NCBI GenBank assembly: GCA_945901045.1
Contig: CAMDKK010000002.1
Coordinates: 59,785-123,784, forward strand
Direction: 5' to 3'
Length of the DNA: 64,000 nucleotides
DNA from: Limnohabitans sp. Rim8
Lineage (GTDB): Bacteria; Pseudomonadota; Gammaproteobacteria; Burkholderiales; Burkholderiaceae_C
Of this stretch, positions 15,189 to 58,566 are shown piece after piece; the stretch's first letter is position 1; the number at the start of each line of letters is the position of its first letter. Both the position numbers and the translations under genes were made by a program. The notes beneath the pieces were generated by a model that worked only from the letters and a program-made list of their open reading frames with translations, was not told the origin of the DNA and did not search any database.

Positions 15189-15193
15189 AGTCA

Positions 15194-15235
15194 CTGAACC
15201 AAACTTCCTGAACCGAACTTCCTGAAACGAACACC
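15194..15235 (+). repeat. Three tandem 14-bp units in the flgH-flgI spacer
   Basis: The 47-bp spacer consists mostly of CTGAACCAAACTTC, CTGAACCGAACTTC and CTGAAACGAACACC placed head to tail, ending at the flgI ATG. No normal Shine-Dalgarno is visible before flgI. Slippage may have expanded the spacer. Confidence 0.6.
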
Positions 15236-16360: not shown

Positions 16361-16366
16361 GAATTT

Positions 16367-16861
16367 ATGGACGCTCAACCCGTTTCCCGCTCGTACCTGG
16401 ACTTTGAGGGCCTTGGCCAACTCAAGGGCCAAGCACGCACAGACTCCAAGGGTGCGCTGCGTCAAACCGCGCAACAATTCGAAGCGCTGTTCTTGCAAAT
16501 GACCATGAAGTCCATGCGCGAATCGGTGATGAAAAGCGACCTGATCGAATCCAATACCGCTGACCAATTCGAGTCGATGTTCGACAAAGAAGTGTCGGTG
16601 CAACTGTCCAAGCGCAACAGCATGGGCCTGGCCGACATGCTGGTCAAAAGCCTCGAAGCGCGCCAAGCCAGCACCCCGCCCGCCACAGCCGACGTCCTCA
16701 AAGCACGCGACACCAGCGACCAGCCCAGCATGGCCTTGAACCCTGTGCAACTGGGCTTGCCTTTGCAGGCGGCCAAAAAAATAATGAACGACCTGCCGCG
16801 CCCGAACGGTGCGATGTTGCTCACAGCGCCCAAAAAATCGATTAACGGAGGCACGCCATGA
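16367..16861 (+). CDS. flgJ: FlgJ, rod-assembly protein, single-domain form
   Basis: 164 residues: only the N-terminal rod-binding domain (KGALRQTAQQFEALFLQMTMKSMRESVMKSDLIESNTADQFESMFDKEVSVQLSKRNSMGLADMLVKSLE). Enteric FlgJ is about 310 residues and carries a C-terminal glucosaminidase; that domain is missing here and the tail is a Pro/Ala linker. The LysM/transglycosylase-like gene at 6.6-7.9 kb could supply the wall-cutting activity. The stop overlaps the flgK start (ATGA). Confidence 0.92.
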   Translation: MDAQPVSRSYLDFEGLGQLKGQARTDSKGALRQTAQQFEALFLQMTMKSMRESVMKSDLIESNTADQFESMFDKEVSVQLSKRNSMGLADMLVKSLEARQASTPPATADVLKARDTSDQPSMALNPVQLGLPLQAAKKIMNDLPRPNGAMLLTAPKKSINGGTP

Positions 16862-19800: not shown

Positions 19801-20283
19801 TCAGCCACCCACTACCGCATTCGCGATGTGAAAACCGACACCATCGTCGCCGAACGCGACTTTGACCCCGATGCGAGCAACCTCAGTGTCAGCTTCCAAG
19901 GCTTGAGTGTCTCCTTCACCTTCCCACCGCAAGCCGGTGACAAATTCACCCTTGACGGCAACGACGATGGCACGGGCAGCAACACCAACATGCTGGCCTT
20001 GGCGCAGCTCGAAACCAAATCGCTGGTCAGCAACAAAACCCTCAGCGCCGCGTACATTGACCACGTCAACAACATCGGCAACATCTCGAGGCAAGCCACC
20101 ATTGCGCAATCGGCTTTGAAAGTGGTGCACGACCAAGCCGTTTCCGCCAAAGACCAAATCGCGGGCGTGAGTCTGGACCAAGAAGCGGCCGATCTGATAC
20201 GATTTCAACAAGCCTACCAAGCGGCGGCCAAAGTCATGCAAGTGGGCAGCCAGTTGTTTGACAGCATTTTGCAAGTGCGCTAA
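16858..20283 (+). CDS. flgK: FlgK, hook-filament junction protein 1 (very large, with internal repeats)
   Basis: 1141 residues, about twice the usual length. The N-terminus (LAGNAVAAYQRALGTVSNNIANVATEGYSRQEIDL) and C-terminus (GVSLDQEAADLIRFQQAYQAAAKVMQVGSQLFDSILQVR) are canonical. The middle (about residues 580-900) holds at least three copies of a roughly 100-residue unit of the type IDLQLPLAINGQTIF ... SKQSLVDAINLA ... VTAALDPDGNLTLSS ... NALGVPAQVF, which resembles the Flagellin hook IN motif usually seen in FliD and flagellins. It requires FlgN for export. Translational coupling to flgJ is likely. Confidence 0.94.
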   Translation: MSDLVALAGNAVAAYQRALGTVSNNIANVATEGYSRQEIDLRANPVSKLGNIYLGTGVIVNGVKRQYDGFTEANLRNSNSDLASQEPMVNYANRVIDVMGGPTTGLTTALDQLFSSARDLSSDPASTVLRASFVRDAQGLTSRFGELSSQMDMIQNETDQAIESNVNNMNTIFGNLANVNKQLTKAQTEAAQPPDLLDQRDKLLKDLSAYARVNASFSVNGTATVSLGSSISQDVVVVGNTSKLISAFSDPLFPGKTNLILDQYGKASTLTGISSGSLSGLLTFQDQVLGTSRSALDNLASILTKEINAVHAQGIDGYGKPGGPLFSIDPAASHAASGMTVAFEDPMKVSAAAQFRVIQNSTNTGGGVISLDYQDPTSTTTGGPGNLQTILVNNDNASAGRAITIDPSRPAMAVATVLNGMKDVSIFLDSAQTGQQLQVMTRDGRQILGNAINSTSLEAAALLSTKGMAAGAQLSNTYLNKSGNTGYKDMTVFYGVRADVQQEPIYNDAGQSLTSKSLPASVTSGRIDPDSTGYPAGAFVLNGVSLGALTPALAKLQAKDVAQWLKDANTGLTITASNEIRIPDKQVYLAGNLAINGQAIPFDVGSDRFNNKQSLINAINGQQAVTGVFASMDLDGALVLRNNDGSNIQIDTNPSGVNTLGNALGIPAGLFGGTVSMNRPLVTFSAVNATQINIAADQMNLSLPLNLYGKTITKAAPGFTSVSELASAINAASTGVTATVSNGILSLTKASDPQGVFAGLDSNGALAISDASDSTKFIGAAVSLKRPLPTDVTSNITNLIKFPADKIDLQLPLAINGQTIFKPSTGFASKQSLVDAINLAQSVVTAALDPDGNLTLSSTDGPDNNSIQVATDSAGTNATGNALGVPAQVFRSAITAGNNVQLKAGDTAIELGFGAAANPGTPADLAHLGFRTGAYIKGTSPEDLLVFVTGAGTASVAASYSGEPVDERQSLRAQPMELSFTSATHYRIRDVKTDTIVAERDFDPDASNLSVSFQGLSVSFTFPPQAGDKFTLDGNDDGTGSNTNMLALAQLETKSLVSNKTLSAAYIDHVNNIGNISRQATIAQSALKVVHDQAVSAKDQIAGVSLDQEAADLIRFQQAYQAAAKVMQVGSQLFDSILQVR

Positions 20284-23345: not shown

Positions 23346-23372
23346 TCAAGTTTTCTCCCGAGCCTCCGATTC
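23346..23372 (+). promoter_or_regulatory. Sigma-28 (FliA) promoter of flagellin 1
   Basis: TCAAGTTT, 11 bp, TCCGATTC, 62 bp before the flagellin ATG. SD AAAGGA follows nearer the start. Confidence 0.8.
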
Positions 23373-23434: not shown

Positions 23435-24232
23435 ATGTCAGTCATTAACACCAATGTGAAATCCCTTGTTGCTCAAAACGCCATGAGCGTTAACAGCCGC
23501 TCGCAGGATACCGCGATGCAACAACTGTCTACCGGCATGCGCATCAATGCCTCCAGCGACGATGCTGCCGGCTTGGCCATTGCTTCCCGCATGACCAGCC
23601 AGATCAGAGGTCTGGACCAGGCCGTTCGCAACGCCAACGACGGCATCTCCATGTTGCAAACCGCCGATTCTGCCTTGGCCACCGTGTCGAACATGTTGCA
23701 GCGTCAACACGAGCTGTCTGTTCAACATGCCAACGGCACTTACAACACCGACGATCAAGCATCTTTGCTGGATGAATTCGATGCTTTGTCTGCTGAGATC
23801 GACCGCATCCAAGACGGCACCCAGTTCGCTGGCAACGATTTGTTCACTGCTACTGCGGTTTCATTTCAGGTGGGTACGGTTGCATCTGGGACCGCTTCCA
23901 CTGATAACCAAATCACAGCATCCCTGGCTGCGCCTGTAGCCTCCACCGCCGCACTGGATATCGAAGAATCTGACACTATTTCTGATGCTTTGACTGCCGT
24001 CAATGAATCCCGCTCAGCTATTGGTGCAACGGTCAACCGCTTGACTTTTGCGGCTGACAACGCGGCCAGCGTTTCGCAAAACATGAGCGCTTCACGCAGC
24101 CGTATTCAAGACACAGACTACGCCAAGGCGTCTTCTGAGTTGGCCCGTACGCAGATCATTGCACAAGCCTCGACCGCCATGCTGGCGCAAGCCAACCAGT
24201 CCAGCCAAGGTGTTTTGGCCCTGCTCAAGTAA
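23435..24232 (+). CDS. fliC: Flagellin 1 (main FliA-dependent flagellin)
   Basis: 265 residues, a compact flagellin with D0/D1 and a very short variable region. N-terminus: MSVINTNVKSLVAQNAMSVNSRSQDTAMQQLSTGMRINASSDDAAGLAIASRM; C-terminus: NMSASRSRIQDTDYAKASSELARTQIIAQASTAMLAQANQSSQGVLALLK. The usual LQRIRELAVQAANGT loop reads MLQRQHELSVQHANGT here, with two unusual His. The gene has a FliA promoter and a strong terminator, consistent with high expression as a single-gene transcript. Confidence 0.96.
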   Translation: MSVINTNVKSLVAQNAMSVNSRSQDTAMQQLSTGMRINASSDDAAGLAIASRMTSQIRGLDQAVRNANDGISMLQTADSALATVSNMLQRQHELSVQHANGTYNTDDQASLLDEFDALSAEIDRIQDGTQFAGNDLFTATAVSFQVGTVASGTASTDNQITASLAAPVASTAALDIEESDTISDALTAVNESRSAIGATVNRLTFAADNAASVSQNMSASRSRIQDTDYAKASSELARTQIIAQASTAMLAQANQSSQGVLALLK

Positions 24233-24355: not shown

Positions 24356-24382
24356 TCAAGTTTTTTGAACTCGTACCGAATC
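24356..24382 (+). promoter_or_regulatory. Sigma-28 (FliA) promoter of the decapeptide-repeat gene
   Basis: TCAAGTTT, 11 bp, ACCGAATC, ending 43 bp before the ATG at 24426. Its two boxes are identical to those before the 67-aa gene (47185-47211). Confidence 0.75.
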
Positions 24383-24425: not shown

Positions 24426-25913
24426 ATGCAAGTTAGTTCATCCGCAGCCAGCTACAAAATTGATGCAACACAGCTGAAAACGCTGTCAGATGCACGGATC
24501 AAGACCATTCCCAATGCGGCCTTGTCCAAGCTGTCCGCCTCGCATTTCCAAGCCCTGAGCATCGATCAAAAAAAGCTGCTCTCCAATTCGCAGTTGGAAA
24601 GCCTGTCGGCCAGCGCCTTAAAGGGCTTCACGGGCACCGACATCGCGGCCATGGACGCTGCATTCAAATTGGCCTCCCCTGCCAGCGCTTTGTCAGTCAA
24701 AGTGATGGCCAAGCTCGATGCCAACCACCTGTCACAGATGGACACCGCAGCCAAAGAAAGCTTGACCGGCGCACAGCTGGGCGCCTTGACCGCTGCGTCT
24801 TGGTCTGGCTTCACGTCTTTGCAAGTCGCCGATATAAACGCTTCTAAAATTCCTGCATTAGGAAAAAACTTCGCAGCCGGCATTTCTATAAACCAATTCT
24901 CAGCCTTGACCGAGACCACCGTGAGTGGCGACGTGTATTACGGTCAAATTAGAAGACTTTCTGCCCAAGCTGTCGGCGCTATTTCTGCAGACAAGCTGAA
25001 TGCCTTAAGTACAGACCAATTAGAGTCCCTTACGGGCTTACAGATCAGCCAACTGAGTTCCAAGGCCATCTCCAACATGAGTGCTTCGCAGTTCAAAAAC
25101 TTGAACACAACGCAGCTCAATTCAATTTCTGCTGCCAACATGCGGGGTGTTACCACGGCGCAAATATCCGGCCTCAGCAAAACACAAGTGGCCGCATTCA
25201 CCAACAGCCAAATCAAGAGCCTTACGGGCAGGGCCGTTGAAGGGCTGAGCGCAGAGAACATTCAAAACTTGTCTGCCGAACAGTTGAGCAGTTTCAATGT
25301 CAACGCCATCAGCAGCCTGAGCACTTCGGCCTTAGACGCGGTGGCAACGGCTGCTACGGCCAAGGCAACGGCTGCGAATGTTGCTGGAACAATATCTGCG
25401 CTTGCAAGTACTCTTACTACTGCGACTTCCGCAGCAACTACTGCCGCTTCAGCTTATACCGCTACTCCTACAGCTACTACTCTTGCCACTAAGGATGCTG
25501 CTGATGCTGCAAAAATTGCAGCACAAGCTGCTGTTGATAAAAATACGGCCGCTGGACTTTTAAAAGACAAAACTGCTGGTTTCACCAACCAGCAGGTGGT
25601 CAAGTTCACGGCTGAACAAGTCAATAGCGTGGTTTTGTCCATGACCGAAAGCCAAATCTCCTCGCTGTCTTTGAAGGCTGTTGAAGGGATTTCCAAGGCC
25701 AACACCAGCCAATTGACCGACACACAAATCAATGGCTTGTCCAAGGCCCAAGTGGGTAAAATCTCACTCGAGGACATTTCAGAGTTGACAGTGACCCAGC
25801 TTGCGGGTATGGACAGAACCCAAATTTCCGGCTTCACTAAAAACCAGTTTGCCCAGTTTTCAGCAGCGCAAATAACAAACGGTTTGGGTGACAACATTAC
25901 TTATTTGGTCTGA
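24426..25913 (+). CDS. Decapeptide-repeat protein under flagellar late control
   Basis: 495 residues from the ATG at 24426, with SD GGAG six bases upstream; a TTG four codons earlier is unlikely. Most of the protein is a repeat of about ten residues of the form LSxxQ(L/I)xxL, for example LSKTQVAAF, TNSQIKSLT, LSAENIQNLSAEQLSSF, predicting a regular solenoid. Residues about 307-382 interrupt it with an Ala/Thr-rich stretch. There is no signal peptide and I see no cysteine. The Ser-rich N-terminus (MQVSSSAASYKIDATQ) could suit flagellar type III export, but this is an inference. It sits directly behind flagellin, with a FliA promoter and a terminator, so it belongs to the late flagellar regulon. 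Function unknown. Confidence 0.8.
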   Translation: MQVSSSAASYKIDATQLKTLSDARIKTIPNAALSKLSASHFQALSIDQKKLLSNSQLESLSASALKGFTGTDIAAMDAAFKLASPASALSVKVMAKLDANHLSQMDTAAKESLTGAQLGALTAASWSGFTSLQVADINASKIPALGKNFAAGISINQFSALTETTVSGDVYYGQIRRLSAQAVGAISADKLNALSTDQLESLTGLQISQLSSKAISNMSASQFKNLNTTQLNSISAANMRGVTTAQISGLSKTQVAAFTNSQIKSLTGRAVEGLSAENIQNLSAEQLSSFNVNAISSLSTSALDAVATAATAKATAANVAGTISALASTLTTATSAATTAASAYTATPTATTLATKDAADAAKIAAQAAVDKNTAAGLLKDKTAGFTNQQVVKFTAEQVNSVVLSMTESQISSLSLKAVEGISKANTSQLTDTQINGLSKAQVGKISLEDISELTVTQLAGMDRTQISGFTKNQFAQFSAAQITNGLGDNITYLV

Positions 25914-26003: not shown

Positions 26004-26065
26004 AGTAAATGCTAAGTTCATTAGCAGAAGTTGCTATATTGAATCCCTACACAGTGGAGTTTCCC

Positions 26066-26533
26066 ATGCACCCCTACGTTTCCCAAGCCCTGCTCGCCGT
26101 TCAAAAGGAGCAGTTGTTGCAAGAGGCCGATGTGGCTCATTTTTCGCCCACCGATTTCCGACACGGCATTCAGTGGCTTCTGTCAGAAAATCAAGACGAT
26201 TTGGCCCAGGCCCTGGCCGATGCAGGCCTGAGCCTGCACCCGCACAACCAAGAAGTGCTGGCCATGGCCGGTTTGCTGGCCATGACCCGCGAAGACTGGC
26301 CCCTGGCCGTCGAGTTGCTGCAAGATTTGTATGCCGTCCAAGGCGATCAAACCCAACCCATGACCTACCAAATGCTGGCACGGGCCCATTTTTGCAATCT
26401 GCAACGCGCCGAAGCCGTTCAGGTGCTGACGGCGGCCCTGCTGGCCTGGCCCGAAGACGCGATGCTGCGCGAAGAACTCAGCTGCCTCGGCCCTGAGTTC
26501 AATTTCCCCGGCACCTCCAATCTGCACCACTGA
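26066..26533 (+). CDS. Tetratricopeptide-like protein upstream of flagellin 2
   Basis: 155 residues from the ATG at 26066 (SD GGAG). It is all-helical, with TPR-like pairs: IQWLLSENQDDLAQALADAGLSLHPHN, QEVLAMAGLLAMTREDWPLAVELLQDLYAVQ, YQMLARAHFCNLQRAEAVQVLTAALLAWPED. The fold recalls type III secretion chaperones of the YscG/LcrH kind. Lying between a sigma-54 promoter and a flagellin gene, it may be a chaperone for flagellin 2 or a repeat protein. No named family recognised. Confidence 0.65.
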   Translation: MHPYVSQALLAVQKEQLLQEADVAHFSPTDFRHGIQWLLSENQDDLAQALADAGLSLHPHNQEVLAMAGLLAMTREDWPLAVELLQDLYAVQGDQTQPMTYQMLARAHFCNLQRAEAVQVLTAALLAWPEDAMLREELSCLGPEFNFPGTSNLHH

Positions 26534-26543
26534 AGCAGCGGCA

Positions 26544-26567
26544 AAGCTTTGCCGCACGGCAAAGCTT
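26544..26567. terminator. Hairpin between the TPR gene and flagellin 2
   Basis: Perfect 11-bp arms AAGCTTTGCCG and CGGCAAAGCTT around a 2-base loop, 10 bp after the TPR-gene stop. There is no following T run, so it may be an attenuating or mRNA-processing hairpin rather than a full terminator. Confidence 0.5.
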
Positions 26568-26628
26568 GTCCCTTTGGCCATCCCCCTGCTATTCTGTTAG
26601 CCTGTTCAGCACCCTATTGGATCTTGCT

Positions 26629-28236
26629 ATGACTGTGATCAACACCAACATCAAAGCGCTCTACACCGAGAACTCTTTGCAAGAAGCACAGCGCGCGTCC
26701 TTGGTCGCTTCAAAGCAACTGGCCACAGGCAAACGGATCAACTCGTCCATGGACGACCCCGCCGGCATGGCGGTGGTGACCCGGATGACGCAAAACATCA
26801 AGAGTTTGCAACAAGCCAACTTGAACGCGGGTTACGGCATTTCTTTGATCCAAACGGCCGACGCCTCATTGGCCAGCATAACGACCATGCTGCAGCGCAT
26901 GAGCGAATTGGCCCTGCAAGCCCAAAACGGCACCATGACTGATTTGCAGCGCAGCTCTTTGGACAATGAGTTTCAACAAATCACCGCTGAGATTGTGCGC
27001 ACCTCCCTCACCACTTCGTGGAACGGCGCCCCGATTCTGAGTGGCGATGCGGGCACTCAGGTGGGTCAGCCCAAGTTCACCGGCGAGGCGCGCGCCATCG
27101 TTGCCGTCGCAGGCACGCCGATCGCTTTGGGTGCTTCTGACTTGAAGATTACCAACAGTTCGGGCGTGGCCTTTGCGATTCCTGCATCGAGCACCACACC
27201 GGACACGGTGAGCATGGCCAGCACACTCGTGACCTCCAGCAGCCCCAGCGCCAGTGCCATCGCCATTGCGAAAGCCATCAATACGCAAACAGCCTCGACC
27301 GGGGTGGTGGCCACGCCCCATGCGGCACAGATTGATGGCCTGAAAACCACCATAGACAGCACAGCAGACGTGCAAACCAATTTGTTTGTCAATGGCGAAA
27401 GGGTTATCTTGACCTTGGGCAAAGACCAAACCCCCGCAGAACGCCGCGCCTACGTTGTGCAAACCATCAACTCAGGCGTCGCGCAGCATGGCGTGACGGC
27501 CGAAGACTCCGGTTTGGGAGGCCTGACGCTGAAAACCCCCGATGGCCGCAACCTCTCGGTTTGGTACGACAACACGGTTGCCGATGCCTCTGATTTTGGC
27601 TTGGGCTCTGACGCCACCATCTCTGCAGATGTCAGCGGCGTGACGGGCATGAGCACTGCCAATTCCGTTTTAACAACGGGTGTGCCGGCCAGCACTTTGT
27701 ACGGTACGGTGTCCATGACTTCCGACACCACTTTTTCCTTGGCGAACGGCAACACGGCACCGGCCATAGGCAACTTTACAGCGCTCATGCTGGAATCCGG
27801 AACCTACAAAGCCCAAAAAATCAGCCGTCTTGACTTTCAAGTGGGCGCACAAGCCAACCAAATCATATCCATCGAGCTGGCTGATTTTGGCAAAGAGGGC
27901 CCTATCACCGGCAGCGTCACCAGCGACACGGCGCCGGTGCACGTGTCCACTGTCGAGTTGGCCAAGAACGCCAGCATTCAAATCGCCATTGCCGCCGAAG
28001 CAGTGTCCAAAGCCCGCGCTTCGATGGGCGCCATCATCAACCGGCTGCAAGATGTGGCCGACAATTTGACCAGCGCCACGACCAACGAAATTTCCTCCCG
28101 CAGCGAGATCGAAGACTCGGACTACGCCGCGGCCAGTACCGAGTTGTCACGCACCACCATCTTGCAACAAGCCGCCACCGCGATCTTGGCCCAAGCCAAT
28201 ACCGACATGCAAACGGTCATGAAATTGCTGCAGTAA
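26629..28236 (+). CDS. Flagellin 2, long and divergent
   Basis: 535 residues from the ATG at 26629 (MTVINTNIKALYTENSLQEAQRASLVASKQLATGKRINSSMDDPAGMAVVTRM). The N-terminal D0/D1 domain is recognisable but diverged, and IQTADASLASITTMLQRMSELALQAQNGT is conserved. The C-terminus is SRSEIEDSDYAAASTELSRTTILQQAATAILAQANTDMQTVMKLLQ. The central domain of about 300 residues is absent from flagellin 1. There is no FliA site directly before it; it appears to depend on the sigma-54 promoter before the TPR gene. That suggests an earlier-expressed filament component, as with the sigma-54 flaA of Vibrio. Confidence 0.92.
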   Translation: MTVINTNIKALYTENSLQEAQRASLVASKQLATGKRINSSMDDPAGMAVVTRMTQNIKSLQQANLNAGYGISLIQTADASLASITTMLQRMSELALQAQNGTMTDLQRSSLDNEFQQITAEIVRTSLTTSWNGAPILSGDAGTQVGQPKFTGEARAIVAVAGTPIALGASDLKITNSSGVAFAIPASSTTPDTVSMASTLVTSSSPSASAIAIAKAINTQTASTGVVATPHAAQIDGLKTTIDSTADVQTNLFVNGERVILTLGKDQTPAERRAYVVQTINSGVAQHGVTAEDSGLGGLTLKTPDGRNLSVWYDNTVADASDFGLGSDATISADVSGVTGMSTANSVLTTGVPASTLYGTVSMTSDTTFSLANGNTAPAIGNFTALMLESGTYKAQKISRLDFQVGAQANQIISIELADFGKEGPITGSVTSDTAPVHVSTVELAKNASIQIAIAAEAVSKARASMGAIINRLQDVADNLTSATTNEISSRSEIEDSDYAAASTELSRTTILQQAATAILAQANTDMQTVMKLLQ

Positions 28237-42481: not shown

Positions 42482-45400
42482 TTAAGCCTCGATGATCTGC
42501 GGATCGTAATTGCCGCCATTGATTTTGGCCAAGGTGGTTTCGCCCGCATCGAATTGCGCTTGGGTGATCATCATCGGTGCATCGTCAGTGATTTGGATGT
42601 CGTCCACTTTGGTGCCCAGAGTGACCAACTGGTCAAATTCTGCAGCCACTTCGGCTGCGGTGCCTTTGATGGACACGGTTGCCACATTGGGCTTGCCTGC
42701 TGCCACTGTGGCTTGCCCTGGTGCGACATCGAGCAGGGCCAAGGACTGGGTTGGTATCTTGGCCAGCACATTGGCCGACTGGCTCCACTGCTCATAGGTA
42801 ATTGCGACAGGTGTTGCAGTGTCGGTGACCGTCACGCCGGCCAACATGTTCGCGCTCAAGGCAGACAGATCGTCCCATCCGGTGGCAATGGCTTCGCTGG
42901 TGCCTGACACCTGGACGCTGCCCACGTTGCTCGTAGCCAGGACGCTGCTCAAATCGGCCATGGACACACCGCTGACGTCTATTGCGTAATCGCCCCGCAG
43001 CTTGCTTTGCGTGTCTTGAATCGTGGTCAGTTGCGTCGCGGTCAGCGCCAAGCGGGTGTTGGCTTGGAGGTCAATATGGTCCAGCTTGCTGTGGCCAAGC
43101 AAACTGCCCACAGTTGCACTGATATCCGCTGAGCCCACCAGCGAGAAGCTGGCGACAGAGCCATCGGCTTGCAATGCTGCGGCTTGTGCTGGCGCTGCGC
43201 TTTCAATGTTCAGGCTGAAGCTGCCCTTGATTTTGCTGAAGCTACCGGCTGTCACGGCGTCACTGTACTGGCTGCCTGTGATGGACAGTTGAGATGAATC
43301 GCCCGACAAGCTCACCGATGTGATTTTCGTATTTTGCATCAGCCCAATTTGATTGGACACGGTGCCTACATTGTCGATCACGGTCATGCTTTGCACATGC
43401 GCATCGGCCAGCAGCGTGTTGGCCAAGCTCATGTCTGCACCAGTGACTGTCAATTTGTAGTCGGCTGGGCTGGAGTCGATCACGTTGATTTTGCCCAGCA
43501 CGCTTTGGTTCGCCACATATTGGCCCGCAGAGATCGTCAGAACGGGCGCGGCTGTGGGTGTGGCAAGGCTGTTTAGTTTAGATCCGAGATTGGCCAAGCC
43601 ATTCAGATTGGCGGCAATTTGGGTCGCGCTGTCAGTGACATTGAAGTCGCTGATATTGAACTGGGTATTTTGCGCTTCGGTCAACGCGGCGCTGGCCGAG
43701 ATGCTGCTCAAACTCACAGTGAAAGACTCGTTGATTTTGCCCAGAACGGCTTTGTATTTTTGGAAATTACTGTACGCAAAATCCATGCTGTGGTCATCAC
43801 CCGTGAGTTTCAAGGTCTTGATTCGTGAGCTGTTTTGCATCAAGGCATCCAATGTGCCTGTACTCTGTATTTCGTTTGCGGTACCTTGAACTTCAGCACT
43901 GACGACATGCGCGTTGGCGAATAAAGTGCTCAAGTCTGCGGTGGTGGCTTGGGTCACTGCAAAGCCATAACCCCCCTGGAATTTAGCCAACAATGCTGCA
44001 TCGGCACCAAACTGCGTCATGGTCATGCTCACAGGCGTGGAGGGATTAGACAACGCAAGGGTCGAAATTTTGCTATTGGCTGTCAACACATCAAGCTTGC
44101 CTGAGATATTGGCCGCAGTGTCGGTGACCGCGATCAAGCCAATTTTGTCATTGTCAACAAAGCTTTGCGCTTGCGTAGCCGAGGCAGCGCTGAGATCGAC
44201 CTTGTAGTTACCCGACACTTTGGTCAATGTGGGGGCTGCTGCTGCTGCGTTCCATTGCGTCATGGACAGCTTCAAATTCGCTGAATCATTTTGCGTGATG
44301 GCTTTAAGCTTGGTGCCCAAAGCCATGAGCTTGTCAAAATTACCCGAAATTTGGCTGGCCGTATCTTTGACACTGATCGAATCGACGTGAGGCTTGGTCA
44401 GCAAAGTGAGGCCGCTGGCCACACTTGCCTCCGTCAAGGACACGCTGTAACCCTTGATTTTTTCCAAAACACCCAGGTTAGTCATCCAATTGCTGACCGA
44501 CATGGTCAAGGCGGCGCCTGCATCGGTCTGCACAATGCGGTTCAATTTGGTACCGAGCGCGCGCAAATCGGTCAGTTGGGCGGCATCCGAAAGATCAGTG
44601 GCTGCGCCTTTGACATCCATACTGACAACATGCGCATTACCTGCCACACCGCCAACTTCGGCCAAAGCGACATCGGTGGCCTTGACGGTGTAATGGCCGT
44701 TGATTGTGCCCAGCGCATCCGTGTAGTCATCCAGCTGTGTTTTTGTCAAGGTAAATGCGCTGAGCTTGCCCAACATGTCCACTTTGATAGTGGGCGCAGC
44801 GGCAGCGGCCACAGCGGTTTTAAGTGCCGTTAAATTGGATGCGATGTTGCTGACCGTGTCTGCCACCTGAATGTCTGTGACGTGCGAGTTTGCAGCCATG
44901 GTCTGAATTTGACTGGCCCTGGCGCTACCGACCGCCAGCGTGTAACTTGCACCCAACTTGGCCAGCGAAGTGGCGGCGTAGGCGTCAAACTGCTTGCCGG
45001 TGACTTGAATGGCGGTGGCGTCGGACTGGCTGATCGCCGCCAATTTGGTGCCCAAGCCCATCAAAGCGTCCAGATTGGCAGAAATGGCCGCGCCAGAGTC
45101 CGACACATTCAAGCTTCGCACGCGCAGGTCAGGGGCCAGGTTAAGGGCATCCTTCGCGCTCACTTCGGTCAAGGCCACGCCGTAACCGCCCACAATTTTG
45201 GACAACACGCCCATGTGCGAAGTCCAGTTGCTGGCGGTCATTGCCAGCGACTGCTCTGGATTGTTTTGAGTGATGGTGGTCAGCGTTTTGCCTAATTTGG
45301 CCAAGTCGTCCAAATTGGCCAATAGATTGTCAGCCGAGTCACTGACCGACATGCTGACAATGCTGGTGTTGCTTAAAAGACCTAAGGCGGCATCCGCGGA

Positions 45401-46762
45401 AACACCGCGCACATTCAGCATGAAGCTCTCTTTGCCCAGCAGGGTCAAAGCACTGCTGTTGCCCGCCAATTGCGCTGCGGTGATGTTGAGCACCCCGCCA
45501 GTGCCAGTTTGACTGATGCCTGTGACCTTGCTATTGCCATTCAAATCTTCTAAGTTCACGGCGATGGCCGCGCTGGTGTCTGCGACCGATATCGATTGAA
45601 TGTGTTCGTTACTCTCAATGGCCTTCGCATCCACCGCACTGGCAGCCACAATATTGAGCTTGTAGATGTTATTGGCTGCGGTAGGTGTGGTGGACTGCTC
45701 CACCGCATTGGGGTCTGTGTTGATGACCTTGCTCAACACACTGCCATATGTCAAAAAGTCGACTGCCGTCATGGTCAAGGGGTTGGCAGCCGGGTCGGTA
45801 TCCGTTACCCGCACAGAATTGATCTGGCTGCCCAACCGGTCCAACAAAACCAAGTTTTTGGACAAATTGGCTGCCGTATCGACAATGTCCATGGAAATGA
45901 CTTTTTTATTCGACTTGAGCTCCATGGCCGAGGTCGAATCCACATTGAACACCGCCAACTGATAGCCCTTGTAGAGCTTGCCGATCACGGCTTTGTCAGC
46001 CTCCAATTGACTGGCCTTGAGCTTCATGATGCCGTTGTCGCTGCTGGCCAAAGCTTTGACCTTGACGCCCAAGGCTTGCAGCGCATCCAGTTGATCTGCA
46101 ATGGCTTGGGAGCTGTCCAAAATGCTCACAGCGCTCACACGCGCATCAGCACCCAGGCTGATGGCCTGGCTTGTGCTGGCACCCGCAACTTCAAAGCCAA
46201 AGGTACCCGTCATTTTGCCCAAGACATCTAGGCGAGCCGTGTCAGCTGCATAGGTCGTGTACTGCTCATAGGTCAGTTTGAGGGGCGCAGAACTGGACAG
46301 TTGCATGCCTTCCAATTTGGCATTGCCTGTATTTAATTGACTTAACTTGGCAACGATATTGATGGCCGAGTCCTTGACTGAAAACTGACTGACCTTGGTG
46401 TTGGCACTGACCGCGGCCACGTCTTTGGCCGTGACATTGGAGACACGCATACTGACAGGGTTACTTCCACCCAATGCCATTTTGTTCAGCAGGGTTGAAT
46501 AACCAGGAGTTAACAGCTGTTTGGCTGTCAGATTGATTTGTGTGCTGGCCGTGTCAGATAAAGTGATCGTCTTGAGGTTGTTGACCACCTTGCTTAAAGC
46601 ATCGAGGTTCTTTTCGATGTTGGCGGCCGTATCAACGATGTCAAACTTAGCGCGAGGGTTGATTTTGATGGCTGAAAACGCAGCCGCAACTGTTTTTTCA
46701 GACGTGACGGCACTCTGCTGGTAATAGTTGGAAGTAACAGTGGCGCTCTGAACGTTTATCAT
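42482..46762 (-). CDS. Giant repeat protein with a FliA-type promoter
   Basis: About 1426 residues from the ATG at 46762 (MINVQSATVTSNYYQ). Nearly the whole protein is made of about 19 copies of a repeat of about 75 residues: VSVxDTAANIxxNLDALxx, LGTKLxxIxQxD, LxMTxxQWxxxxxVLxKI, then GGYxVxLxxVSA and LxxNAHV. Related repeats occur in large secreted proteins of proteobacteria. There is no signal peptide, no RTX nonapeptides, and I see no cysteine. The predicted FliA promoter ends so close to the ATG that the mRNA would be nearly leaderless, and no SD is visible. A secreted filament- or surface-associated protein is a reasonable guess; function unknown. Confidence 0.8.
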   Translation of the reverse strand: MINVQSATVTSNYYQQSAVTSEKTVAAAFSAIKINPRAKFDIVDTAANIEKNLDALSKVVNNLKTITLSDTASTQINLTAKQLLTPGYSTLLNKMALGGSNPVSMRVSNVTAKDVAAVSANTKVSQFSVKDSAINIVAKLSQLNTGNAKLEGMQLSSSAPLKLTYEQYTTYAADTARLDVLGKMTGTFGFEVAGASTSQAISLGADARVSAVSILDSSQAIADQLDALQALGVKVKALASSDNGIMKLKASQLEADKAVIGKLYKGYQLAVFNVDSTSAMELKSNKKVISMDIVDTAANLSKNLVLLDRLGSQINSVRVTDTDPAANPLTMTAVDFLTYGSVLSKVINTDPNAVEQSTTPTAANNIYKLNIVAASAVDAKAIESNEHIQSISVADTSAAIAVNLEDLNGNSKVTGISQTGTGGVLNITAAQLAGNSSALTLLGKESFMLNVRGVSADAALGLLSNTSIVSMSVSDSADNLLANLDDLAKLGKTLTTITQNNPEQSLAMTASNWTSHMGVLSKIVGGYGVALTEVSAKDALNLAPDLRVRSLNVSDSGAAISANLDALMGLGTKLAAISQSDATAIQVTGKQFDAYAATSLAKLGASYTLAVGSARASQIQTMAANSHVTDIQVADTVSNIASNLTALKTAVAAAAAPTIKVDMLGKLSAFTLTKTQLDDYTDALGTINGHYTVKATDVALAEVGGVAGNAHVVSMDVKGAATDLSDAAQLTDLRALGTKLNRIVQTDAGAALTMSVSNWMTNLGVLEKIKGYSVSLTEASVASGLTLLTKPHVDSISVKDTASQISGNFDKLMALGTKLKAITQNDSANLKLSMTQWNAAAAAPTLTKVSGNYKVDLSAASATQAQSFVDNDKIGLIAVTDTAANISGKLDVLTANSKISTLALSNPSTPVSMTMTQFGADAALLAKFQGGYGFAVTQATTADLSTLFANAHVVSAEVQGTANEIQSTGTLDALMQNSSRIKTLKLTGDDHSMDFAYSNFQKYKAVLGKINESFTVSLSSISASAALTEAQNTQFNISDFNVTDSATQIAANLNGLANLGSKLNSLATPTAAPVLTISAGQYVANQSVLGKINVIDSSPADYKLTVTGADMSLANTLLADAHVQSMTVIDNVGTVSNQIGLMQNTKITSVSLSGDSSQLSITGSQYSDAVTAGSFSKIKGSFSLNIESAAPAQAAALQADGSVASFSLVGSADISATVGSLLGHSKLDHIDLQANTRLALTATQLTTIQDTQSKLRGDYAIDVSGVSMADLSSVLATSNVGSVQVSGTSEAIATGWDDLSALSANMLAGVTVTDTATPVAITYEQWSQSANVLAKIPTQSLALLDVAPGQATVAAGKPNVATVSIKGTAAEVAAEFDQLVTLGTKVDDIQITDDAPMMITQAQFDAGETTLAKINGGNYDPQIIEA

Positions 46763-46770
46763 CAACAAGT

Positions 46771-46797
46771 GAATCGGATGCTGGCCGGATTACTTGA
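46771..46797 (-). promoter_or_regulatory. Sigma-28 (FliA) promoter of the giant repeat gene
   Basis: On the - strand: TCAAGTAA, 11 bp, TCCGATTC; the -10 is identical to that of flagellin 1. The expected start of transcription, about 7 bases downstream, falls at roughly 46764, two bases before the ATG. Confidence 0.65.
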
Positions 46798-46926
46798 GGG
46801 CAATCAAACGTAATTCATGCGACATAAACAAAAGTACTCAAAGAAACTTCAGCACTTTGCACCGCCTTTTAGGCTGCGATGTTGACCGCACTGGACTTGG
46901 TTCCAGGGGTCGAATCTCCTACCCTC

Positions 46927-47130
46927 TCAGACAAACTGAAGGAGTACCTGCCGCCGAATGGTGGCCTTTAAGGCCTGGGTGTCAGAGGCGGAGTTGGCCA
47001 CACGATCATCTATGAAAAGGGTCAAAGTATCGCCATCAGGGCCGGCCATGGTGTTTACCGCGTCAACAGACGTTGGAGCTATAAAGTTTGACGCTTTATC
47101 CACCACACTGATTTGAATTGTTTGCGTCAT
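46927..47130 (-). CDS. Small 67-aa protein with a FliA-type promoter
   Basis: 67 residues from the ATG at 47130: MTQTIQISVVDKASNFIAPTSV, then PDGDTLTLFIDDRVANSASDTQALKATIRRQVLLQFV. It looks like a small beta-strand domain with a C-terminal helix and has no signal peptide. It lies just upstream of the giant repeat gene on the same strand and has a FliA site. It could be a chaperone or accessory for the repeat protein, but only position supports this. The 158 bp between the two genes contain the giant gene's promoter and nothing else that I recognise. Confidence 0.6.
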   Translation of the reverse strand: MTQTIQISVVDKASNFIAPTSVDAVNTMAGPDGDTLTLFIDDRVANSASDTQALKATIRRQVLLQFV

Positions 47131-47184
47131 GTTGAATCTTTCATTCCACGGCCTTAACAGCTTTACTTTGAGCCGTTCGAACAA

Positions 47185-47211
47185 GATTCGGTTTGGATAA
47201 GATAAACTTGA
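47185..47211 (-). promoter_or_regulatory. Sigma-28 (FliA) promoter of the 67-aa gene
   Basis: On the - strand: TCAAGTTT, 11 bp, ACCGAATC, identical boxes to the decapeptide-repeat gene promoter, about 55 bp before the ATG at 47130. Confidence 0.75.
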
Positions 47212-47376: not shown

Positions 47377-47484
47377 ATGGCACGCAAGCTTCGTCCATCC
47401 GATCGAACGTTTTCACACAGCCTCGGCCCAGACCTGTCAGGCGAAAGGCCGAAGCTTATTGATGTACAGGCTTTGGTGGGCTGA
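47377..47484 (+). pseudogene. Remnant of an OGT-like gene (3' tail duplication)
   Basis: A 35-codon frame from ATG (MARKLRPSDRTF) ends LSGERPKLIDVQALVG. The last 15 codons match the end of the OGT-like protein encoded next (LSGERPEIIEVQALMR), and the DNA is closely similar. The start MAR also resembles that of the intact gene. It is probably the scar of a tandem OGT-like gene lost by internal deletion. Confidence 0.5.
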
Positions 47485-47551
47485 CGCGTTTGTGAATTTA
47501 TGGGATGATTGCACACGGTTTATACGCACTCAGGCTGAAAGAAAAAAGCAA

Positions 47552-49606
47552 ATGGCAAGACCGCTTCAAATCCCTCACCGAGTGCCTAAGTCCAAAAAAC
47601 TGGCACAGCAGCCAAACACCGAGATAACTCAGCTTTTTCAGCAGGGTTTGGGCTTGCATAAACAGGGGCAATTGACCCAAGCTAAATCACTTTATGAGCA
47701 AGTGCTGGTCAAGCAGCCCCAACACTTCGATGCCTTGCATCTGCTTGGCGTTATTGCTTTACAGACTGGAAAGCCTGAATTGGCCCAAGCGTTGATTGGC
47801 AAGGCGATCGTGATCAAACCCAACTACGCGCCAGCCTACTCCAACCGTGGTGCGGCGCTGAAAGACCTCAAGCGGTATGAAGAAGCGCTTGCAAGCTACG
47901 ACAAGGCCATAGCCATCCGACCCGATTACGCCGAGGTCTTCAATAACCGTGGCACTGCACTGCGAGAGCTCAATCAACTAGACGAGGCTATCGCGAGCTA
48001 TGAGCAGGCCATAGCCATTCAACCCAATTACGCTGAAGCCTTTAACAACCTTGGGAATGTGTTGAAAGATCTTCAGCAGCTTGAAGAGGCGCTTGTGTAC
48101 TATGACAAAGCGGTTAAGTCTAAGCCCGATTACGCCGAAGCATTCAACAACCGGGGCATCACACTTCAATTACTCAATCGCCTGGACGAGGCGTTGGCGA
48201 ACTTTGACACTGCCATCACGCTCAAGCCCAATTTCGACTTTTTGCTGGGCCTTAAATTACACGCTCAAATGCATTTATGCGACTGGCGTGACTTGACCGC
48301 CCAGCTCCACCGGCTTGAAACCGCCCTGGTTCTAGGGCTGATGGTCACACAGCCTTTCGAGCTCTTGGGCTTATCGAACAAGCCTGCGCTTCAGTTGAAG
48401 TCCGCCAAGTTATACGCTGAAGCCTTATTTCCGGACTCTGAGTTTCTGGAAGACTTCAAACGCCGGGACTCATCAGAAAGAATACGCATCGGTTACTACT
48501 CGGCCGACTTTCATAACCATGCCACCGCCTACTTGATGGCCGAATTGTTTGAGGCCCACGACGCGCAACGGTTTGAGTTGTACGGGTTTTCTTTTGGACC
48601 CCCTAAGCAAGACGCGATGCGCCAGCGTTTATCAAACGGGTTTAACCATTTTTTTGATGTCACCCAAAAATCTGACCGTGAAGTTGCCCTGATGTCCCGG
48701 GCGTTGGGGATCGATATCGCTGTGGATCTCAAAGGCTATACACAAGATTCAAGAGTCGGCATCTTTGCACAGCGCTGCGCGCCGGTTCAGGTCAACTATC
48801 TGGGCTATCCGGGCACCATGGGCGCCCCCTATTTTGACTACATCGTTGCAGACAAGGTGTTGATCCCCCCAGAAAGTCAGCAGCACTACAGTGAAAAAGT
48901 CGTCTACCTGCCGCACAGCTACCAGGTCAATGACGCCAAGCGCAAGATAGCCGACACCGTGTTCACACGCAAAGCGCTCGGCTTGCCCGAGAGCGGTTTT
49001 GTATTTTGCTGCTTTAACAACAATTACAAAATTTTGCCCACGACCTTTGACGCTTGGATGCGCCTGCTGAAAGCTGTGGACGGCAGCGTGCTGTGGCTTT
49101 TAGAAACCAATACAAGCGCCGCCCACAACCTGCGCCAAGAGGCCCAGGTCAGAGGGGTCGAGCCCAGCCGACTGGTATTTGCCAAGCGCATGAAGTTGGA
49201 AGACCACCTGGCCCGGCACCGTGCAGCTGACTTGTTTCTGGACACCTTGCCCTACAACGCCCACACCACCACGAGCGATGCGCTGTGGGCTGGGCTGCCT
49301 GTCTTGACGCTGATGGGCCAAACATTTGCAGCCAGGGTGGCGGCCAGTTTGCTCACGGCAATGGACCTGCCGGAGTTGATCACCCACACGCAAGAAGACT
49401 ACGAAGCCAAAGCGCTTGAATTGGCTCAGAACCCCTTGCAGTTGGCGCGACTCAAAGACAAACTTGAGCGCAACCGTGCAACGTCAACTCTGTTCAACGG
49501 CCAGTTGTTTGCCAGGCATTTGGAGGCTGCTTATGCGCAAATGCATAAACGGCACCTGTCAGGCGAGAGGCCGGAAATTATTGAAGTGCAGGCTTTGATG
49601 CGCTGA
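47552..49606 (+). CDS. TPR plus O-GlcNAc-transferase-like glycosyltransferase
   Basis: 684 residues from the ATG at 47552. Six TPRs of 34 residues (about 25-230; for example NYAPAYSNRGAALKDLKRYEEALASYDKAIAIRP) are followed by the OGT/SPINDLY-type GT41 domain: IRIGYYSADFHNHATAYLMAELFEAHD, DIAVDLKGYTQDSRVGIFAQRCAPVQVNYLGYPGTMGAPYFDYIVAD, FCCFNNNYKILPTTFDAWMRLL, and RAADLFLDTLPYNAHTTTSDALWAGLPVLTLMG. Such enzymes transfer a sugar from a nucleotide sugar to Ser/Thr of proteins. Given the flagellar context, flagellin or the repeat proteins are possible acceptors, but this is an inference. Confidence 0.9.
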   Translation: MARPLQIPHRVPKSKKLAQQPNTEITQLFQQGLGLHKQGQLTQAKSLYEQVLVKQPQHFDALHLLGVIALQTGKPELAQALIGKAIVIKPNYAPAYSNRGAALKDLKRYEEALASYDKAIAIRPDYAEVFNNRGTALRELNQLDEAIASYEQAIAIQPNYAEAFNNLGNVLKDLQQLEEALVYYDKAVKSKPDYAEAFNNRGITLQLLNRLDEALANFDTAITLKPNFDFLLGLKLHAQMHLCDWRDLTAQLHRLETALVLGLMVTQPFELLGLSNKPALQLKSAKLYAEALFPDSEFLEDFKRRDSSERIRIGYYSADFHNHATAYLMAELFEAHDAQRFELYGFSFGPPKQDAMRQRLSNGFNHFFDVTQKSDREVALMSRALGIDIAVDLKGYTQDSRVGIFAQRCAPVQVNYLGYPGTMGAPYFDYIVADKVLIPPESQQHYSEKVVYLPHSYQVNDAKRKIADTVFTRKALGLPESGFVFCCFNNNYKILPTTFDAWMRLLKAVDGSVLWLLETNTSAAHNLRQEAQVRGVEPSRLVFAKRMKLEDHLARHRAADLFLDTLPYNAHTTTSDALWAGLPVLTLMGQTFAARVAASLLTAMDLPELITHTQEDYEAKALELAQNPLQLARLKDKLERNRATSTLFNGQLFARHLEAAYAQMHKRHLSGERPEIIEVQALMR

Positions 49607-52939: not shown

Positions 52940-52974
52940 GGCAAGTTCTTTTATTTGAAAGTAAGGTGTGCATC

Positions 52975-53280
52975 ATGTTTAAAAACGGCATGCGTCCCGT
53001 CCACCCAGGAGAAGTCCTCTTGGAGGACTGCATAAAACCCATGGGCATCAGTGTTCACGCCCTGTCGTTGGCCCTGCATGTGCCGTATTCGCGGCTGCGT
53101 GAAATTGTGGATGGCAAGCGCGGCGTGTCAGCAGACACCGCCTTACGCCTTGAGCGTTATTACGGCAGCGAGGCGCAAGGATGGCTGAATCTGCAGACGG
53201 CATACGACCTGCGCGTCGCGGAGAAGCTGAGCGCTAAAGCCATTTTTAATCAGATTGAACCGTTGTCGATGGCGGCATAA
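52975..53280 (+). CDS. higA: HigA family antitoxin with broken partner
   Basis: 101 residues from the ATG at 52975 (AAGG upstream). Canonical HigA: MRPVHPGEVLLEDCIKPMGISVHALSLALHVPYSRLREIVDGKRGVSADTALRLERYYGSEAQGWLNLQTAYDLRVAEK. It binds its own promoter and the HigB toxin, but the HigB gene directly upstream is reduced to a frameshifted tail. So it is an antitoxin without a local toxin. Confidence 0.93.
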   Translation: MFKNGMRPVHPGEVLLEDCIKPMGISVHALSLALHVPYSRLREIVDGKRGVSADTALRLERYYGSEAQGWLNLQTAYDLRVAEKLSAKAIFNQIEPLSMAA

Positions 53281-53403
53281 CTTTCGGGCGCCCCGATGGC
53301 CACCCCAAATTCCCCCTTGCATTCAGGCAGCGCACCAGGAAACTGCACCATGCGCGAGACACACAAAGACGAGAATTCATGAATGAGTGCCCGGCCTGTC
53401 CAC

Positions 53404-53709
53404 TTAAGCCGATGCCAGCACTTGGCTGCGACGGGATTTTTGCTGTGGTGCCGACAACTCTTCTCTGACCACTTGGCGCACTGCATCGATCATCGAACGC
53501 TGCTGGATAAAGGCCACCAGGGCGTCATTGATCAAGGTCTGGTAACTACCGGTTCCAGCGTGCTCAACTTGCGCGCGGAAGTGATCAATGACTTTATTAT
53601 CCAAGCGTATCGATATTTTGGTCTTGCCTGCATCCAGTGGAATCACCGCGCCTTGCTTTGCATTTGAAAAGTCAATGTCCCGGTACGGCTCAGCGACGAA
53701 TTTTTTCAT
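53404..53709 (-). CDS. brnA: BrnA-like antitoxin, orphan
   Basis: 101 residues from the ATG at 53709, chosen because AAAGGA lies 7 bases upstream. Features: MKKFVAEPYRDIDFSNAKQGAVIPLDAGKTKISIRLDNKVIDHFRAQVEHAGTGSYQTLINDALVAFIQ, the BrnA_antitoxin pattern with its RHH fold. BrnT should be encoded just upstream; instead ParE ends there, so the toxin is missing. Confidence 0.82.
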   Translation of the reverse strand: MKKFVAEPYRDIDFSNAKQGAVIPLDAGKTKISIRLDNKVIDHFRAQVEHAGTGSYQTLINDALVAFIQQRSMIDAVRQVVREELSAPQQKSRRSQVLASA

Positions 53710-53743
53710 ACAAATTCCTTTGAGGTTTATTGTGAAAGTCATC

Positions 53744-53883
53744 GGTGGCTAGGCGTGCCTTGGGGCCACAGTCACCCCGGTAGATGTCTCTGCAAGTCCA
53801 TGCTGTCGTGTAGCAACCTGAGGATATCGATGGTCTCCTGCGAACCCACGCGATAAACCAGAAAATGCCTCCCCTTTCGGCCT
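53744..53883. repeat. Dispersed repeat R1, copy B
   Basis: Shares TTGGGGCCACAGTCACCCCG, ACCTGAGGATATCGATGGTC and GATAAACCAGAA with copy A at 52.4 kb. It spans the spacer before brnA and the end of parE. Confidence 0.6.
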
Positions 53884-54104
53884 GAGCGTTCGACATGCAG
53901 GGTCTGGATACCTGGTTCAATGTCATCATGAAGTTTGCTTCCCAAAATTTCTGGGCCATGATTCAAGGCTTGGATTGCCAGTGAAATCGTCTCCGAATAA
54001 GTATTGGCTTGGGCTTTGCCAAAAGACTTCGCTGTCCAATTCAGAATGTCTATAAAGTCCCGTTCGGCCTGTCGACCAAGCCGGACACCCCAAGCGCTGC
54101 TCAT
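53772..54104 (-). CDS. parE: ParE family toxin
   Basis: 110 residues with the RelE/ParE fold: WGVRLGRQAERDFIDILNWTAKSFGKAQANTYSETISLAIQAL ... SGRKGRHFLVYRVGSQETIDILRLLHDSMDLQRHL. ParE toxins poison DNA gyrase. Its start overlaps the parD stop (ATGA). It appears intact, one of only two complete modules in this cluster. Confidence 0.9.
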   Translation of the reverse strand: MSSAWGVRLGRQAERDFIDILNWTAKSFGKAQANTYSETISLAIQALNHGPEILGSKLHDDIEPGIQTLHVERSGRKGRHFLVYRVGSQETIDILRLLHDSMDLQRHLPG

Positions 54105-56982: not shown

Positions 56983-58566
56983 ATGGCACTCAAATTCAAT
57001 GGCAATTTCATCGAAAAGAACATGGCGCATTCGCTTGAATTACTAAAAGCAGTTCAGTTGCTGCAAAAAGGGCAACATGACTTGGCGCGGCAAGCTCTGG
57101 AAATTTTGCACCAGAAATCGGACTCAGAGTCTTGCACCGCCGTGCGCTATTTGGCACATATTGAGTCATTAAATAATCATTTTGAGAAAGCAATAGCGCT
57201 GCTGGCGCAAGCCCATATTGATTTTGGGCCCGATCCCAAAGTGCTGACTCAGTTAGCCGAATACAACATGAAGTCTGGCGACTACGACCGTGCCATTGAC
57301 TACGCAAATCAGTCGTTGCAATTGATGCCAAACAACCCTGTGTTGAGGCTCAATCTGGCCAGTTGGTTGAGTAGCCGACTTGACGATCCCACAAAGATCC
57401 GCCAGATCTACGAAGACTGGTGTCACGATTATTTGCCTCACCCGCCCCCATTTCCACCGCTCATACTTCGTCCCTTGACAAAAGGCCGCCGACTGAAAAT
57501 TGGCTATGTTTCAGGTGACTTAAAAAATCATGCTGTCCGCTACTTCATCGAGCCATATTTCAGGCACCAAGACCGAAAACAATTTGAAGTGCACGCCTTC
57601 ATGACCCTCAAGCCGGACACCATCTCGGACATTCTCCGGGGGCAAGTGGAACATTGGCATGAAGTAGAAAAACTAAGCAACGATGCGCTATTGGAAAAAA
57701 TACAGCAACTGGGCATCGATGTATTAGTGGACTTGTCTGGGCATACCGCAGGCCAAAGGCTGGAAGTCTTTGCCCAACGTGCAGCGCCGGTCCAAGTCAC
57801 CTGGTGGGGGTTTGTGCAGACACTGGGACTGCGACAAATGGATTACCGGCTTACCGATTCGCTGCACTGCCCCCCGACTACCGACGCGCACTACACAGAA
57901 AAACTGCTGCGAATGAAATGCTTCACGGCATATGCCCCTCCGCTGAATTCAGAGCAACTTTTTCCGAGTCCGCGGAAGTTAAACGGCTATGTCACTATGG
58001 TGTCCATGAACCATAGCCGCAAAATCAGCCAGCAAGCCCTTCTTTGCTGGCGTGACATTCTTATTCAAAATCCTACGGCGGCCCTCTTAATCGTCTCCAA
58101 TGAAAGCACCGAAAGTGGTGCCAATGGCTTGTATGCTGAACGGTTGCGCGCCTTGGACATGCCCATGACCCGTGTCGCCATATCCCCTAGGCTGAGCATG
58201 CTGAACTTCATGCATTTGGCATCAATCGCTGATTTTGCACTGGACTCGATGCCGATTTCTGGCGGCGTCACCACGTTTCATAGTTTGTGGATGGGACTAC
58301 CCGTGCTCACCCTTGCACCACCTGAGCCGATTGCCCTTCGTTCGTACACTGCCAACATTTTGAGAACTATTGGGATGGATGAATGTGTTGCAAATGGTTT
58401 AAATGAGTATGTAGAAAGGGCCAGTCAATGGATTCAAAATCCTGAAGTTTTGGATCGGCTCAGAGTGCAATGCAGACCCTTTTTGCAACAAAGCCCGTTC
58501 ATGCAACATGCAGAACGGGTCCGTGAACTTGAGGCATTGTTTACAGAACTGCGTGGTGGACGCTAG
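56983..58566 (+). CDS. Second TPR plus OGT-like glycosyltransferase
   Basis: 527 residues. Fewer TPRs than the first (about residues 15-140: AVQLLQKGQHDLARQALEILHQKSDSES, SLNNHFEKAIALLAQAHIDFGPDP, MKSGDYDRAIDYANQSLQLMPNNP). Then the GT41-type domain: LKIGYVSGDLKNHAVRYFIEPYFRHQD, DVLVDLSGHTAGQRLEVFAQRAAPVQVTWWGFVQTLGLRQMDYRLTD, SMNHSRKISQQALLCWRDIL, and IADFALDSMPISGGVTTFHSLWMGLPVLTL. Protein acceptor unknown. It is unlike enough from the enzyme at 47.6 kb not to be a recent duplicate. Confidence 0.85.
   Translation: MALKFNGNFIEKNMAHSLELLKAVQLLQKGQHDLARQALEILHQKSDSESCTAVRYLAHIESLNNHFEKAIALLAQAHIDFGPDPKVLTQLAEYNMKSGDYDRAIDYANQSLQLMPNNPVLRLNLASWLSSRLDDPTKIRQIYEDWCHDYLPHPPPFPPLILRPLTKGRRLKIGYVSGDLKNHAVRYFIEPYFRHQDRKQFEVHAFMTLKPDTISDILRGQVEHWHEVEKLSNDALLEKIQQLGIDVLVDLSGHTAGQRLEVFAQRAAPVQVTWWGFVQTLGLRQMDYRLTDSLHCPPTTDAHYTEKLLRMKCFTAYAPPLNSEQLFPSPRKLNGYVTMVSMNHSRKISQQALLCWRDILIQNPTAALLIVSNESTESGANGLYAERLRALDMPMTRVAISPRLSMLNFMHLASIADFALDSMPISGGVTTFHSLWMGLPVLTLAPPEPIALRSYTANILRTIGMDECVANGLNEYVERASQWIQNPEVLDRLRVQCRPFLQQSPFMQHAERVRELEALFTELRGGR

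Follow-up and report, generated by a model that had tools for sequence, protein, structure and literature searches.

Late flagellar genes form the regulon of the sigma factor FliA (sigma 28), which is switched on once the hook is finished and FliA is freed from FlgM, together with flagellin. Flagellins, including the giant flagellins (PMC6248924), are products of late flagellar genes that can be very large. The other described proteins closest to the one considered here are the ALTTAQ-repeat proteins (PF20080), the leucine-rich repeat (LRR) proteins such as LegL1 (PDB 4xa9), and the repeat adhesins and RTX proteins of type I secretion, which are generally known as giant, repetitive and cysteine-free. 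In the window, that is, the whole 64,000-nucleotide stretch of Limnohabitans sp. Rim8 analysed here, a gene of 1426 codons (hereafter the giant gene) encodes a repeat protein that can be set beside each of these. It resembles the ALTTAQ proteins of the same genus in long tandem repeats, an often Ser-rich N-terminus, FliA boxes and linkage with flagellin; the flagellins in its size, its late flagellar promoter and its putative export; the LRR proteins in a predicted local strand-helix solenoid; and the type I adhesins in being giant, repetitive and free of cysteine. The giant repeat family is a new family among the late flagellar accessory proteins, which are a known kind, and the placement of its promoter is unusual. 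None of the papers listed by a literature search deals with this family.

The original prediction of a 1426-codon gene on the minus strand is confirmed by an uninterrupted frame (Table 1), whereas its estimate of about 19 repeats of about 75 residues has to be corrected. A profile built from the protein's own units detects 17 repeats of about 80 residues each, extending from residue ~36 to the C-terminus; it detects none in 20 shuffled versions of the protein. Searches with the giant protein against Pfam and NCBIfam returned no relative, with matches only far below the cut-off, and a search against PDB sequences returned nothing at E 1. Specifically, it differs from the ALTTAQ proteins in having no PF20080 match, from the flagellins in having neither the N- nor the C-terminal flagellin domain (no Pfam match to Flagellin_N, Flagellin_C or Flg_bb_rod), and from the LRR and RTX proteins in having no Pfam match to either family.

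Relatives of the giant protein are few. With the window's own genome included each time, a match occurs in 8/90 genus genomes, 4/299 family genomes and 2/399 order genomes, and five of the 90 genus genomes carry the full-length gene (G000, the window's own; G759; G762; G764; G720). A contig scan with the single giant protein as query gave no match, and one with the alignment as query gave nine loci, four of them identical over the gene to ones known already (G759=L060, G762=L059, G720=L063 and G092=L065, checked letter by letter). The full-length set therefore comprises ten genes, namely the five above together with G092, G133, L061, L062 and L064; the distant or different repeat proteins G048, G087, G763, L066 and L067 (that of G763 being the same different protein as that of G087) and the fragment in G769 are not counted. 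The named records come from Comamonadaceae, Limnohabitans, Curvibacter and an uncultured beta proteobacterium. Six relatives are 31–66% identical to the window protein over the full length; over the first ~600 residues, the values are 51% for L061, 52% for L062 and 37% for L064. The ten proteins span 1175–2122 residues, and the repeat number is exactly 17 in eight of them, 14 in G133 and 26 in G764.

As had been proposed, a FliA-type promoter, TCAAGTAA-N11-TCCGATTC, precedes the giant gene; it ends 8 bases before the ATG. The score of a box counts matches to the eleven letters of TCAAGT and CCGAT, and any spacing from 10 to 12 was admitted. All ten full-length genes carry the box (11/11 in six, 10/11 in three and 9/11 in one), a spacing of 11 is best in each, and the distance from the end of the −10 element to the ATG is invariably 7–9 bases, although in G720 the 9-base distance is counted to the second of two candidate ATGs, the first lying at 3. 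As a control, the first ATG of every open reading frame (ORF) of at least 150 residues in 18 loci was scored, chance ORFs included. At least 9/11 letters were found at 11/418 starts, seven of which belong to giant-gene relatives; of the remaining 4/411, two are the starts of flaG and fliD, where a FliA promoter is expected. The 411 starts include the ORFs of G092 and G133, taken at a more upstream ATG. The distant repeat proteins outside the family (G048, L066, L067 and G087) reach 7, 7, 8 and 7 of 11, respectively, within 160 bases. Among the less related giant genes the spacers vary while the boxes are kept, so that conservation exceeds what recent shared ancestry would leave. The pair G092 and L064 is excepted, since its boxes and spacer are identical, and the ten genes are thus not ten independent cases. 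The promoter is kept in all ten although the proteins are down to 31% identical. Taken together, these findings indicate that the giant gene very probably belongs to the FliA (late flagellar) regulon and is under FliA control.

The position of the box sets the giant gene apart from the ALTTAQ genes, in which it ends 81–113 bases before the ATG in the ten relatives counted (43 in the window gene), as against 7–9 in the giant gene. Transcription from sigma-28 promoters starts about 7 bases after the −10 element, which places the predicted start of the giant gene on its ATG or within about two bases of it, predicting a FliA transcript that is leaderless or nearly so. The titles and abstracts listed by a literature search showed no leaderless FliA genes. 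With a FliA promoter that abuts the start codon and is conserved in nature, the giant gene lends itself to a direct test of leaderless translation in a late flagellar gene.

AlphaFold2, with eight sequences per run and residues 1–600 and 850–1426 modelled, predicts the repeat part as an LRR-like alpha/beta solenoid. The mean predicted local distance difference test score (pLDDT) is 84.9 for residues 1–600 and 91.2 for residues 850–1426, with predicted template modelling scores (pTM) of 0.55 and 0.61, and the chain is predicted folded up to its last residues. Foldseek gave no match in the PDB at E 0.001; the best was LegL1, with E 2.5e-3 and template modelling scores (TM-scores) of 0.10 and 0.18, so that the likeness to LRR proteins is local, with no overall match. 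In BFVD, nine matches passed E 0.001, six of them named as LRR proteins of giant viruses and one as RNI-like, with low TM-scores. We read the model as a local LRR-like build with a different overall course. Additionally, the N-terminal tail of the window protein carries no charge and is predicted to be disordered (Table 1). None of the ten full-length proteins has Lys or Arg among the first 22 residues, none contains cysteine, and none has a strongly hydrophobic N-terminal segment, the Kyte-Doolittle mean over 19 residues nowhere exceeding 1.21 within the first 60 residues. Such features fit export without a Sec signal and do not choose between routes. The export proposed in the original prediction is thus consistent with the N-terminus and composition yet unproven; a location outside the cell is, in our judgement, likely.

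In line with the promoter, the giant gene is linked with flagellar loci. The left half of the window holds flagellar genes, including those for hook and hook-associated proteins, FlaG and two flagellins, and a FliJ-like frame has its end at 36920. Its distance of 5.6 kb from the giant gene agrees with the original estimate of about 5 kb to the nearest canonical flagellar gene; Pfam identifies the relatives of this frame in two other loci as FliJ. Six of the ten full-length genes have flagellar genes no more than about 12 kb away, and two of these six lie inside a flagellar cluster. In G000, G759 and G762 the giant gene lies 5.6–7.3 kb beyond FliJ with the same amidase adjoining (both identified by Pfam in G759 and G762), in G764 a flagellin gene is 12 kb away, in L062 a sigma-54 activator, FliE and FliF stand beside it, and in L061 it lies between FliF and flagellin. 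A seventh, G133, has flagellin at 46 kb in a single-contig 5.6-Mb genome. In G769, a TPR gene and a flagellin gene follow directly after the end of the repeat-protein fragment. The cut-off of the FliA profile TIGR02479 was exceeded in G000, G092 and G133 among the four carriers scanned, the fourth being G720. Of the two parts of the claim that the giant gene and a neighbouring 67-residue gene belong together to the late flagellar regulon, the one concerning the giant gene is thus supported, and the one making the small gene its conserved partner is not, as discussed below. As a separate observation, L061 encodes at 14506–19359, between the giant gene and flagellin, a 1617-residue protein with a Ser-rich N-terminus and without a Pfam match at E 1e-6.

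What sequence shows is a promoter conserved in letters and placement, a protein built of repeats, its predicted fold, linkage with flagellar loci and a lack of cysteine. The explanation we favour as a whole, with a probability of about 0.5, is that of a class III flagellar gene whose product is a cysteine-free solenoid exported via the flagellar channel and kept on the filament or cell surface. The giant gene would be a member of the late-stage (class III) regulon, and FliA would start its transcription at the ATG or a few bases from it, giving an mRNA with practically no leader. The giant protein would then be made after hook completion, alongside flagellin. Its unstructured N-terminal tail may act as a flagellar type III export signal, and the solenoid may leave through the flagellar channel and then coat the filament or the cell surface or serve there in binding; glycosyltransferases encoded nearby may modify it. 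Within the swimming apparatus, the giant protein is probably a surface or tail-associated component that has so far gone unrecognised. Export through the flagellum and association with the filament form the leading, still putative and unproven reading, and for export by the flagellar apparatus in itself we see an even chance. A giant solenoid with a conserved promoter would in this way join the late flagellar regulon, and families of FliA-driven repeat proteins are suggested for the flagellar loci of this freshwater group. A wider and more doubtful proposal is that of an unrecognised late flagellar class, in which LRR-like solenoids of nearly fixed length are made from leaderless FliA mRNAs, exported through the channel and displayed as a glycosylated coat on the filament or cell surface, with the ALTTAQ giants as a second, independent family.

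Several observations weigh against flagellar export or flagellar membership, and the main competing explanation, which we consider possible although less likely, is a FliA-coregulated surface adhesin that is made in the swimming phase and leaves by type I (or other) secretion rather than through the flagellum. In G764, an ALTTAQ gene with a 9/11 box follows an ATP-binding cassette (ABC) transporter gene (C39 domain) and an HlyD gene, next to flagellin, and similar ABC/HlyD layouts are seen by eye in G763 (with a 10/11 box), G769, G770 and G737, so that giant repeat proteins of the regulon may use type I secretion, which speaks against one shared route of export. A different protein in G087, with one clear copy of the giant-protein repeat, is likewise encoded beside ABC/HlyD-like genes by eye, and lack of cysteine is a general trait of type I substrates too. 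For the giant protein itself, however, none of the ten flanking genes scanned (in G759, G762, G720, L062, G092, G764 and L064) encodes an ABC or HlyD protein, other neighbours having been judged by eye and those of G133 being not reliably readable; the predicted fold reaches the end of the chain and leaves no disordered C-terminal tail; and there is no RTX family match. The giant gene is also rare, as its match in 8/90 genus genomes compares with flagellin in 65/90. Most flagellated genomes of the genus thus lack it, which makes it accessory, as flagella do not need it. By eye, G092, L064 and G720 show no flagellar gene on the contig part examined. The chief point is G720, which has the giant gene and a 10/11 box, yet neither flagellin, Flg_bb_rod nor FliA over the cut-off in a genome 77% complete, whereas the other four full-gene carriers of the genus (G000, G759, G762 and G764) all have flagellin; the absence in G720 may reflect missing data, recent loss or a misplaced contig.

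The apparent lack of flagellar genes in G720 would also fit a chance promoter match with an accidental flagellar link, as would the 11 matches of at least 10/11 on the two strands of the window, four of which do not precede a recognised gene start. We nevertheless reject such a match as extremely improbable, since the box is retained in all ten full-length genes and its distance from the ATG hardly varies. A FliA-controlled protein kept in the cytoplasm or periplasm, for instance as a swimming-phase scaffold or binding protein, is unlikely: export is without a proven signal and the predicted fold is locally like that of LRR proteins, which are commonly binding proteins, but ten proteins of 1175–2122 residues without a single cysteine, the disordered uncharged N-terminus and the link with flagellar loci speak against it. 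Still less probable is the conserved unit of the original prediction, in which the giant gene is paired with the 67-residue frame upstream, and the small protein serves as a chaperone or accessory factor. The frame is present as described, with TCAAGTTT-N11-ACCGAATC (10/11) before it, and its codon use is weakly coding-like at 0.398 bits per codon, the five other frames being negative. However, this value lies just under the 5% point of 0.451 of 99 slices of known window genes (median 0.823), and the box is weaker evidence than that of the giant gene, given the 11 window matches. At E 0.01, a search of 299 family genomes with the 67-residue protein gives no match beyond the protein itself, and the five non-self matches in 90 genus genomes (E 0.037 to 0.08) are not convincing, the best lying inside a giant frame of 10,716 residues. 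The conserved pair was therefore rejected, and the 67-residue frame may be a small orphan gene.

Table 1. Coordinates in the window of the giant gene, the 67-residue frame and other features of the locus.
Feature	Position	Strand	Remarks
Giant repeat gene	42482..46762	−	1426 codons + stop; ATG at 46762, stop at 42482–42484; N-terminal tail, then 17 repeats of ~80 residues
FliA-type promoter TCAAGTAA-N11-TCCGATTC	46771..46797	−	−35 at 46797–46790, −10 at 46778–46771; ends 8 bases before the giant-gene ATG
Codons 1–19 of the giant gene, candidate N-terminal export signal	46706..46762	−	Predicted disordered, pLDDT <50; no charged residue
67-residue open frame	46927..47130	−	ATG at 47130, stop at 46927; weakly coding-like codon use
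FliA-like box TCAAGTTT-N11-ACCGAATC	47185..47211	−	10/11, may be chance; 54 bases before the 67-residue frame's ATG
TPR + GT41 glycosyltransferase gene, divergent neighbour of the giant gene	47459..49606	+	Longest frame; Glyco_transf_41, E 1e-92
Second TPR + GT41 glycosyltransferase gene	56983–58566
ALTTAQ-repeat gene (PF20080), second repeat gene	24426..25913	+	Between the two flagellin genes
FliA-like box TCAAGTTT-N11-ACCGAATC	24356..24382	+	10/11; 43 bases before the ALTTAQ ATG; same variant as the 67-residue frame's box
Flagellin gene (PF00669)	23435..24232	+	FliA box at 23346
Second flagellin gene (PF00669, PF00700)	26566..28236	+	Longest frame

The window holds an ALTTAQ gene in addition to the giant gene, and PF20080 is matched in 30/90 genus genomes. 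Distances between ALTTAQ and flagellin genes were compared by hand among the PF20080 and flagellin matches listed; the two lie on the same contig within about 16 kb in 13/17 genus genomes, and the other four do not show this or could not be judged. Ten of the 17 ALTTAQ starts scored have a box of at least 9/11 and the rest score 6–8, one further match (L110b) having been set aside because the Met behind it is internal to a fragment. For each frame, as many as three of the first ATGs were scored in turn and the earliest to reach 9/11 was kept, which biases this count toward matches; the true start of L104b is uncertain, and frames running off the stretch (L108, L111, L113, L115, L118 and L122) were excluded. 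Elsewhere in the window's genome (contig C11 from 30936; L073 8937–11470), an 11/11 FliA box precedes an ORF of 805 codons that is ALTTAQ-like by eye and whose frame is not continuous with the ATG behind the box, and a second such ORF follows downstream. In L114 (4059–11804), an ABC transporter gene (C39 domain) and an HlyD gene separate flagellin from an ALTTAQ gene that has a 9/11 FliA box, an arrangement that suggests type I secretion within a flagellar locus.

Glycosyltransferase genes accompany both repeat families. All four divergent neighbours of ALTTAQ genes that were scanned join TPR repeats to a GT41 glycosyltransferase, and that of the giant gene is a TPR-GT41 protein in the window and in G764, with TPR only in G092. 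FlmG of Caulobacter is a TPR glycosyltransferase of flagellin O-glycosylation (PMC7591256), and the neighbour in the window likewise joins TPR to a glycosyltransferase domain. This comparison concerns the neighbour, not the repeat protein, and the likeness is one of domain make-up; by analogy, FlmG is a possible model for the TPR-GT41 neighbours, and the divergent GT41 protein may possibly modify flagellin, the repeat protein or both.

A small TPR protein of about 155–174 residues is encoded beside flagellin in the window (26009–26533) and, by eye, in L049, L055, L057, L108, L109 and L111; the window copy has a weak HrpB1_HrpK similarity (E 0.0039), and the protein is possibly a flagellin export chaperone. 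The window further encodes a long hook protein FlgE of 1050 residues (9728–12880) and a long hook-associated protein FlgK of 1141 residues (16858–20283), and small genes at 52966–54104 resemble toxin-antitoxin modules by eye.

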